A stretch of DNA of 44,192 nucleotides from Planctomycetia bacterium (GTDB lineage Bacteria; Planctomycetota; Phycisphaerae; Phycisphaerales; SM1A02). The DNA lies in NCBI GenBank assembly GCA_005792145.1, contig SXSS01000086.1:1-44192 (forward strand). Reading direction: 5' to 3'. The notes under the pieces are model-generated. The model did not search any database, was not told where the DNA came from, and saw nothing but the letters and a program-made list of their open reading frames with translations. The first letter of the stretch is position 1; each line of letters opens with the position of its first letter. Below are positions 5,370 through 7,585 of the stretch, one piece after another. The translations under genes were made by a program, and so were the position numbers.

Positions 5370-6770
5370 TCAGATTTCGTGGGGTTTTCTTGGTGGTATG
5401 TCTTTTCGCATAGATATGAATCCAATGAGCCCGACCACATTGATTATGAAGCAGAGAAAAAAGAACCACGCACCCCAACCCGCTTTCGCCATAGGGTAAT
5501 AGAGCGCAACTGCAACAAATGGCGCAATTGCCCCTCGAATGCCGTTGAGAGTCACATGCAGAGCCATATATTCGCTATCTCGGTGGGCCGGAGCGAAGTC
5601 GTGATGGCCTAGATTCCAAGCAAGCGATCCACCCGCAAATCCAAGTCCAAGCAGGACGCTTGCGAAATACATCAGCCAGAGTGAATCGAGGAGAGTCGCC
5701 AACCACATCGCCAAAGCTGCAAGCACAAATGTCCATCCGTGAACTGATCGAAATGCGACGACATGAGTCTTGACAAGAAATCGCGACCATGCGGGAAGAG
5801 CCAGCGGCATCACTAATAAAGGAATGACGGTTGTTGCGAGGATGCCTTCCAAATATGAAGTATGAAATTGATCGTTGAGCACAATCACTTGCGGTGGACC
5901 CATCATCAGATTTCCAAGTCCAAAGATGGACATCCACCACATAAATCGAGCATAGAAACGATCCTCGCGCAAGAGTGCCAAGAGTCGTCGTGGATCAAGT
6001 CGCGCTTCGCCTTGCTTTCGCCCATCTTGCTCCGCGCGTTGCAGTCGTCGTTGTCCTCGGAGTCGCACTTTTCTATAGATCGCATTTCCTGCAAACCCCG
6101 CCAGCGCAAGCACGGGATAGAGATATCGAAAACTTGCAGGCGCAATATCCATTGCCTGACCAATGACGAATCCCGCCAGCGCAAGAACGACGGCTTGCAC
6201 CATCGCCATTTTGCCTGCAATAAGCGTGCGATTTGCACGCGGGTAATTATTGCGCCAGACGGCGGTTCGGATGGTGATGACTCCAGTCCACGCTGCGCGC
6301 GAGAGGAAGATCAGCGCCGTCAATGCAAAGAGTCCGTACGAATTGATTGGGATGAACGCAACCAAGACGACGCACATACATGTGACAACTTGCAATCTGC
6401 TGATGAACTGAACTTTCTCGCGGCCATGCGCAAGACCTTCCCAAATGAAACTTGTCAGGTTGGCAACATTCGGCGCAGCGATGACAGCAGCGATGGCGAA
6501 ATCCAGTTCGGCTGGACTGATTCCTGGAGTGCCTGCAAACATTTTCTTGACGATGATCGCCATCGTTCCGCCTTCAAGCGCGCCAAGCATCAGAGGCAAG
6601 AGAAACCACGAGAAAAGTTCGCGCGCATAATTCGCGCGGAGCATCGGCGGCAGTGATCGCGGATGAAATCCAGCGACAAAGTGGTTCAGTTTGTTGAAAA
6701 AGAATTGTGTGCCGAAGATATGCACGGGAATGTTTTGTAAGAGCGGGCTGGGTCGAAACAGATTGACCAA
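5370..6770 (-). CDS. MFS-type multi-pass transporter
   Basis: 466 aa with about 12 hydrophobic segments; MFS-like. First codon is TTG; MLRANYAREL (about 6644) is an alternative start. Confidence 0.75.
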   Translation of the reverse strand: MVNLFRPSPLLQNIPVHIFGTQFFFNKLNHFVAGFHPRSLPPMLRANYARELFSWFLLPLMLGALEGGTMAIIVKKMFAGTPGISPAELDFAIAAVIAAPNVANLTSFIWEGLAHGREKVQFISRLQVVTCMCVVLVAFIPINSYGLFALTALIFLSRAAWTGVITIRTAVWRNNYPRANRTLIAGKMAMVQAVVLALAGFVIGQAMDIAPASFRYLYPVLALAGFAGNAIYRKVRLRGQRRLQRAEQDGRKQGEARLDPRRLLALLREDRFYARFMWWMSIFGLGNLMMGPPQVIVLNDQFHTSYLEGILATTVIPLLVMPLALPAWSRFLVKTHVVAFRSVHGWTFVLAALAMWLATLLDSLWLMYFASVLLGLGFAGGSLAWNLGHHDFAPAHRDSEYMALHVTLNGIRGAIAPFVAVALYYPMAKAGWGAWFFFLCFIINVVGLIGFISMRKDIPPRKPHEI

Positions 6771-6828
6771 GAGTAGGGAGAAAGACCGCTGCAGGTGAGT
6801 TGGGTGCTACAGTATTCGTGCGACGTCC

Positions 6829-7052
6829 GGTCCCGCCGGCGGCGATTGGCTATTTCAGCGCTCGAACCTTGCACGAACCCACGGGATCGCAGATCTGCGA
6901 CGAAGATCAAGCCTCCGGCCTTGCGCCGAGTGGAAGATCGGGATCGACGGACTTCGAACCCACCTGCGAGTTGGGTTCGAGCTCACCAGTCAATTTGGGT
7001 CGCTGATCTTCGGATCTCGACCGCGAGCTCGCTCGATCTGCCCGGCGGGACC
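6829..7052 (-). ncRNA. Candidate structured RNA / 5' leader between the HIT gene and the MFS gene
   Basis: Nested perfect inverted repeats: 6829-6839/7042-7052 (11 bp), 6889-6895/7035-7041 (7 bp), 6901-6909/7004-7012 (9 bp), 6954-6962/6972-6980 (9 bp). Strand inferred from the flanking genes. Confidence 0.45.
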
Positions 7053-7063
7053 AGACTTCGCAT

Positions 7064-7585
7064 TCACATCACTGCGCTGCGAAGTATCCGCAAACTTTGT
7101 TCGAGAGAGTCTGGAACGACGCGGACTTCTCCAACAGTCGCCATAAAATTTGTGTCGCCTCCCCAGCGTGGCACGACATGCACATGCAAATGTTCTGGCA
7201 ATCCTGCGCCAGCTGCCCGTCCTTGATTCAATCCGACATTCACGCCTTGCGGACGAAACGCGCGTTCGACTAGACCGACGGCGGTATCGACAAGCGCCCA
7301 CAATTGTGCGCGTTGATCAGTGGAATAGTCCATCAATGTCGGTCGTGGATCGCCCAGTGCGATCAGCAGATGACCATTGGAGTACGGATATCGATTGAGC
7401 ATGATGAGTCCGTGCGCATTTCGAAAAACAACATGGTGCGCAAGGTCGTTGCTCGAATCTTCCCACGCAGCGCGCAGAAAGTTTGTTGGAGTCGAGACGC
7501 CCGAAGCGCGAATATCTGCTTGGCGAGATTCGAGTTCTCGCAGATATGTCATTCTCCACGGTGCCCAGAGATTTTGATTTGCCAT
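7064..7585 (-). CDS. HIT family hydrolase / Ap4A phosphorylase-like protein
   Basis: HIT motif HLHVHVVPRW plus MLNRYPYSNGHLLI. Confidence 0.93.
   Translation of the reverse strand: MANQNLWAPWRMTYLRELESRQADIRASGVSTPTNFLRAAWEDSSNDLAHHVVFRNAHGLIMLNRYPYSNGHLLIALGDPRPTLMDYSTDQRAQLWALVDTAVGLVERAFRPQGVNVGLNQGRAAGAGLPEHLHVHVVPRWGGDTNFMATVGEVRVVPDSLEQSLRILRSAVM

Follow-up and report, generated by a model that had tools for sequence, protein, structure and literature searches.

A divergent 6S RNA between the HIT and MFS genes of a freshwater Phycisphaerales genome and its probable repeated loss among congeners

The 6S (SsrS) RNA is a promoter mimic that binds the RNA polymerase holoenzyme containing the primary sigma factor and is freed through the synthesis of pRNA. 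The general role of 6S RNA is also given in sections of PMC8998176 and PMC10406553. Ms1 of actinobacteria is an independent structured RNA with a shape related to that of 6S and, according to a section of PMC9130861, binds the polymerase core and not the primary sigma holoenzyme. As for Planctomycetota, the 2017 genome paper on Thermogutta terrifontis reports no 6S homologue (PMC5673643), and Wehner et al. 2014, as cited in a passage of the same paper, found no 6S in Pirellula and Rhodopirellula. No description of 6S RNA in Phycisphaera or Planctomycetota was found in the literature covered, this coverage being incomplete.

The window analyzed here is a stretch of 44,192 nt from a freshwater Phycisphaerales MAG. 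It contains, in the gap between a HIT-domain gene and an MFS transporter gene, a block that is almost certainly the 6S RNA gene of this organism (6819-7062, + strand), with a presumed promoter of its own near 6808. The features of the locus are as follows.

5370..6770, - strand: MFS transporter (PF07690, Pfam E 3.5e-13), divergent from the 6S gene
6808..6813, + strand: -10-like box (TACAGT), the presumed 6S promoter, separated from the closing stem by about 5 nt
6819..7062, + strand: 6S (SsrS) RNA gene, about 244 nt, with the ends placed from the closing stem
7064..7585, - strand: HIT-domain protein (PF01230, Pfam E 3e-11), convergent with the 6S gene

As in described 6S / SsrS RNAs (RF00013), the model is matched over its full length, there is one copy per genome, and a closing stem is present; the central bubble consensus ACCCACCT and, in the apical arm, CAAGCC and GTGGAAG are conserved. 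Unlike the RF00013 family, the element scores below the cut-off and spans about 244 nt versus 187 model positions, the surplus being on the 3' side, where it has, between the core and the closing stem, one or more extra hairpins, possibly UUCG-capped. Its neighbours, HIT and MFS, also differ from those of known 6S / SsrS RNA. In contrast to Ms1, 6S is the only Rfam family that the element matches.

Locus and homology to 6S RNA

The HIT-MFS gap measures 293 nt, as given in the first-pass annotation, and the four inverted-repeat pairs reported there are all exact at their coordinates. The outer repeat is longer than was described, with 19 of 21 columns paired between 6819-6839 and 7042-7062. The 6S RNA is encoded on the strand opposite to both HIT and MFS. 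Neighbour comparison in relatives shows that the order HIT - 6S - MFS is kept across the family, and MFS adjoins the element also in several order-level relatives. The block occurs once in its own genome (a 2.5 Mb MAG). The search for tRNA and tmRNA returned none, and the comparison with phage records gave no matches.

Rfam applied at the gathering threshold to the whole window yields no matches. The permissive Rfam search of 6700-7150 yields RF00013 (6S) at 6834-7009 of the + strand (model positions 1-187, i.e. the full length; 26.6 bits, E 0.0014), and no other family matched in that interval. The first-pass annotation had seen no known RNA signature here; RF00013 does match from end to end, though below the gathering score, and the structured RNA of this block belongs to a known family, with this copy previously unannotated. 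Because the score stays below the curated gathering cut-off, which is an annotation rule and not a biological trait (26.6 vs 46.4 bits), the 6S of the window is overlooked by default annotation, and homology to 6S was therefore tested independently. The block is the only RF00013 match in its genome. At the orthologous site, most congeners and three other genera score 23-38 bits; low scores are typical of most orthologues in the order, and some order-level orthologues exceed the cut-off. Among 197 genomes drawn across the phylum, 100 have RF00013 matches with E of 0.01 or better, 54 of them above the cut-off, and thus 6S RNA is common in Planctomycetota.

DNA relatives of the block are present in the genus and the family, with conservation peaking at about 6858-6981. 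The motifs GCTCGAACC, CAAGCC, GTGGAAG, CCCACCT and GGGTTCGAG are common to these DNA relatives and to the relatives above the Rfam cut-off. A covariance model, R1, was built from sequences of 20 relatives. It matches the window at 6858-6983 of the + strand with 116.5 bits, but the scores of the window and of two further loci, L035 and L038, are not independent, since all three belong to the training set. Five loci outside the training set (L032, L033, L036, L037, L039) receive 46-69 bits from Rfam and 67-101 bits from R1 at the same place. In two distant planctomycetes the matches of both models overlap as well (86.9 Rfam bits and 48.4 R1 bits in G189, 72.4 and 38.6 in G130). Judged from sequence models, the element is homologous to accepted 6S RNAs, as R1 and RF00013 coincide in matches above the cut-off.

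Of 101 related genomes, 84 have exactly one R1 match, while RF00013 exceeds its cut-off in only 8 of the 101, one of the 8 being a probable contaminant. Hence most 6S genes of this planctomycete order go undetected at the Rfam cut-off, and a lineage-specific model provides a direct means to recheck reported absences of 6S. With the block assigned to 6S, a candidate "new" RNA is removed. The copy is too divergent for standard annotation; what is unusual about it is its absence from several close relatives (see below).

The probable contaminant is the 1457-bp contig C185 of the congener G006 (L034), which has an RF00013 match of 52.5 bits and only 20.8 bits with R1; the true 6S orthologue of this genome sits on contig C98. 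The RF00013 match on C185 adjoins a cobalamin riboswitch.

Conserved fold and proposed role

Both strands of the block fold better than 200 of 200 dinucleotide shuffles, the + strand with -113.1 kcal/mol (z -3.35) and the - strand with -118.9 kcal/mol (z -4.67), and the first-pass judgement that this is a structured, non-coding block was correct. The elements of the fold are listed below.

6819..6839, + strand: 5' arm of the closing stem, its inner half being the first helix of the first-pass annotation
6858..6983, + strand: conserved 6S core (R1 match; 20-sequence alignment, 27 pairs)
6860-6868/6974-6982, + strand: core helix, a conserved 6S helix
6869-6882 and 6962-6973, + strand: unpaired central bubble with ACCCACCT, the CCCACCT-type sequence being conserved (alignment A4)
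6883-6961, + strand: apical arm of the core (20-sequence alignment)
6954..6980, + strand: fourth helix of the first-pass annotation, TCGAACCCA/TGGGTTCGA, a possible alternative hairpin on the 3' side of the bubble
6996..7035, + strand: candidate additional hairpins on the 3' side, located between core and closing stem (GGTCG..GATC-TTCG-GATC..CGACC; CGAG-CTCG-CTCG)
7042..7062, + strand: 3' arm of the closing stem, pairing with 6819-6839

The 6S traits for which the fold was tested, a long closing stem and a central bubble with conserved sequence, are both present. In 11 congeners, the 19 pairs of the closing stem are formed in 96.7% of cells, with changes on both sides in 8 of them; other relatives have a long helix between the flanks as well. 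In the core, the 27 pairs are formed in 96.1% of cells over 20 sequences, and 11 of them show both-side changes. The covariation score of the core, 0.308, exceeds those of shuffles (0.139) and of slid partners (no more than 0.080). The shuffle control is inflated by relatedness, and therefore the slid controls and the pair counts carry the weight.

The four helices had been proposed to nest in one structure. The outermost is indeed a part of the conserved fold, while the other three lie outside it. In particular, helix 1 is 100% paired in the congeners and covaries. Helices 2 and 3 are paired in 76% and 82% of cells in the 11 congeners, and break through mismatches in a sister lineage. Helix 4 is 99% paired in the same congeners, yet eight of its nine pairs are invariant. 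Since it is nearly invariant and mutually exclusive with the conserved 6S helix 6860-6868/6974-6982, it may be at most an alternative state.

In 10 of 11 congeners, a UUCG-capped hairpin is predicted by folding between the core and the 3' arm of the closing stem, its stem sequence varying from one congener to another; the predicted fold of only some congeners also includes the second hairpin of 6996-7035. The UUCG-capped hairpin may in part account for the low Rfam score.

By analogy with the family, the RNA would form a closed rod whose central bubble imitates an open promoter, and would bind the holoenzyme of RNA polymerase with the primary sigma factor, lowering transcription as growth slows. 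The polymerase would then use the RNA as a template for a short pRNA, whereupon the 6S RNA would be released. As a guess, helix 4 may form in the 3' strand of the bubble upon this release.

Strand, promoter and alternative readings

When the core alignment is read as the + strand, its pair substitutions give about 28 G-U cells against 4 A-C cells, and this excess places the RNA on the + strand. R1 discriminates the strands in the same direction (116.5 bits on +, 15.8 bits on -), and the position of the -10-like box before the 5' closing arm also indicates the + strand. Each of the 29 relatives compared has a TANNNT box 49-69 nt ahead of the core; in 9 of the 29, agreement with TATAAT is at least 5/6 (1.7 expected from shuffles), including four perfect TATAAT boxes. 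Simple scans detected neither a sigma-70 consensus site with a -35 element nor a terminator. The first-pass annotation had also considered a 5' leader or riboswitch on the - strand, with the nested helices switching the expression of MFS. Such a leader would agree with the location of the block, which in the family immediately precedes the MFS gene, and with the somewhat better energy of the - strand (z -4.67 vs -3.35), but the substitutions are G-U and not A-C in the + reading, R1 and the Rfam 6S match favor the + strand, the -10-like boxes face the same way, and eight congeners retain MFS without the element. This reading, which puts the RNA on the wrong strand, as it is divergent from MFS, is exceedingly unlikely.

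The near-perfect terminal inverted repeats of 21 columns, together with the presence of the element in some congeners and its absence from others at the same site, would suit a MITE-like mobile element, another of the three options of the first-pass annotation. However, each genome carrying the element has one copy, the site is constant across the family, both the ends and the core show compensatory changes, and the element is homologous to Rfam 6S, which reduces the probability of a mobile element to practically nil. Equally negligible is a protein-coding role of the 143-codon GTG frame that stays open across the block on the + strand (6795-7226): the frame overlaps HIT in antisense, conservation follows base pairs, and indels in orthologues, being not divisible by three, break the frame and refute it. 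The remaining option of the first-pass annotation, an independent ncRNA, was the right one, the RNA being the product of a 6S gene. It is very unlikely that this RNA merely resembles 6S, leaving the housekeeping holoenzyme unbound and serving another function, related to the polymerase or not (cf. Ms1). Its length in excess of canonical 6S, the extra 3'-side sequence and the sub-threshold Rfam score would be compatible with such a look-alike, but the relatives form a continuous gradation whose upper end lies far above the Rfam cut-off for 6S, with shared motifs and with matches of the two models that overlap.

Distribution of 6S in the genus and family

The named close relatives are MAGs, several of them from lakes. 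R1 gives no match in 8 of 19 congeners, and five of these eight are among the 14 congeners that are at least 90% complete. The HIT-MFS junctions of the eight 6S-minus genomes (L115-L117 and L119-L123) each lie on a single contig. The distance from the HIT stop to the first aligned MFS residue is -26 to 39 nt in them, except for 146 nt in G016; in congeners with 6S it is 276-370 nt. No 6S emerged from the 6S-minus junctions when they were searched with unfiltered R1 and with Rfam at permissive settings.

On the MetH tree, the presence and absence of 6S cannot be explained by fewer than three changes, and the branches with good support already enforce three, a count that applies to one gene tree of MAGs with no outgroup. 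Among the relatives lacking the gene, G018 retains 6S. Since the family has 6S at the HIT-MFS site, several separate losses are likely. We consider it fairly probable that, within one freshwater Phycisphaerales genus, repeated clean deletions have removed the 6S RNA from the HIT-MFS gap. The recurrent loss is the most interesting part of the result: if true, it gives a series of sister species with and without 6S, set up by nature in one genus, and with it a natural experiment on the conditions under which 6S can be dispensed with.

In another family, f2, whose genomes are order-level relatives, R1 has no match in six nearly complete genomes (G037, G042, G046, G050, G054, G089), while other f2 genomes do match. 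A further loss or a 6S of divergent sequence may account for this gap.

In the 146-nt junction of G016 (L116:1361-1506), a hairpin is present, along with a weak resemblance to the 3' portion of the core of 6S. The resemblance is suggestive only of a possible 6S remnant, with 11 of 500 shuffled sequences being as good.
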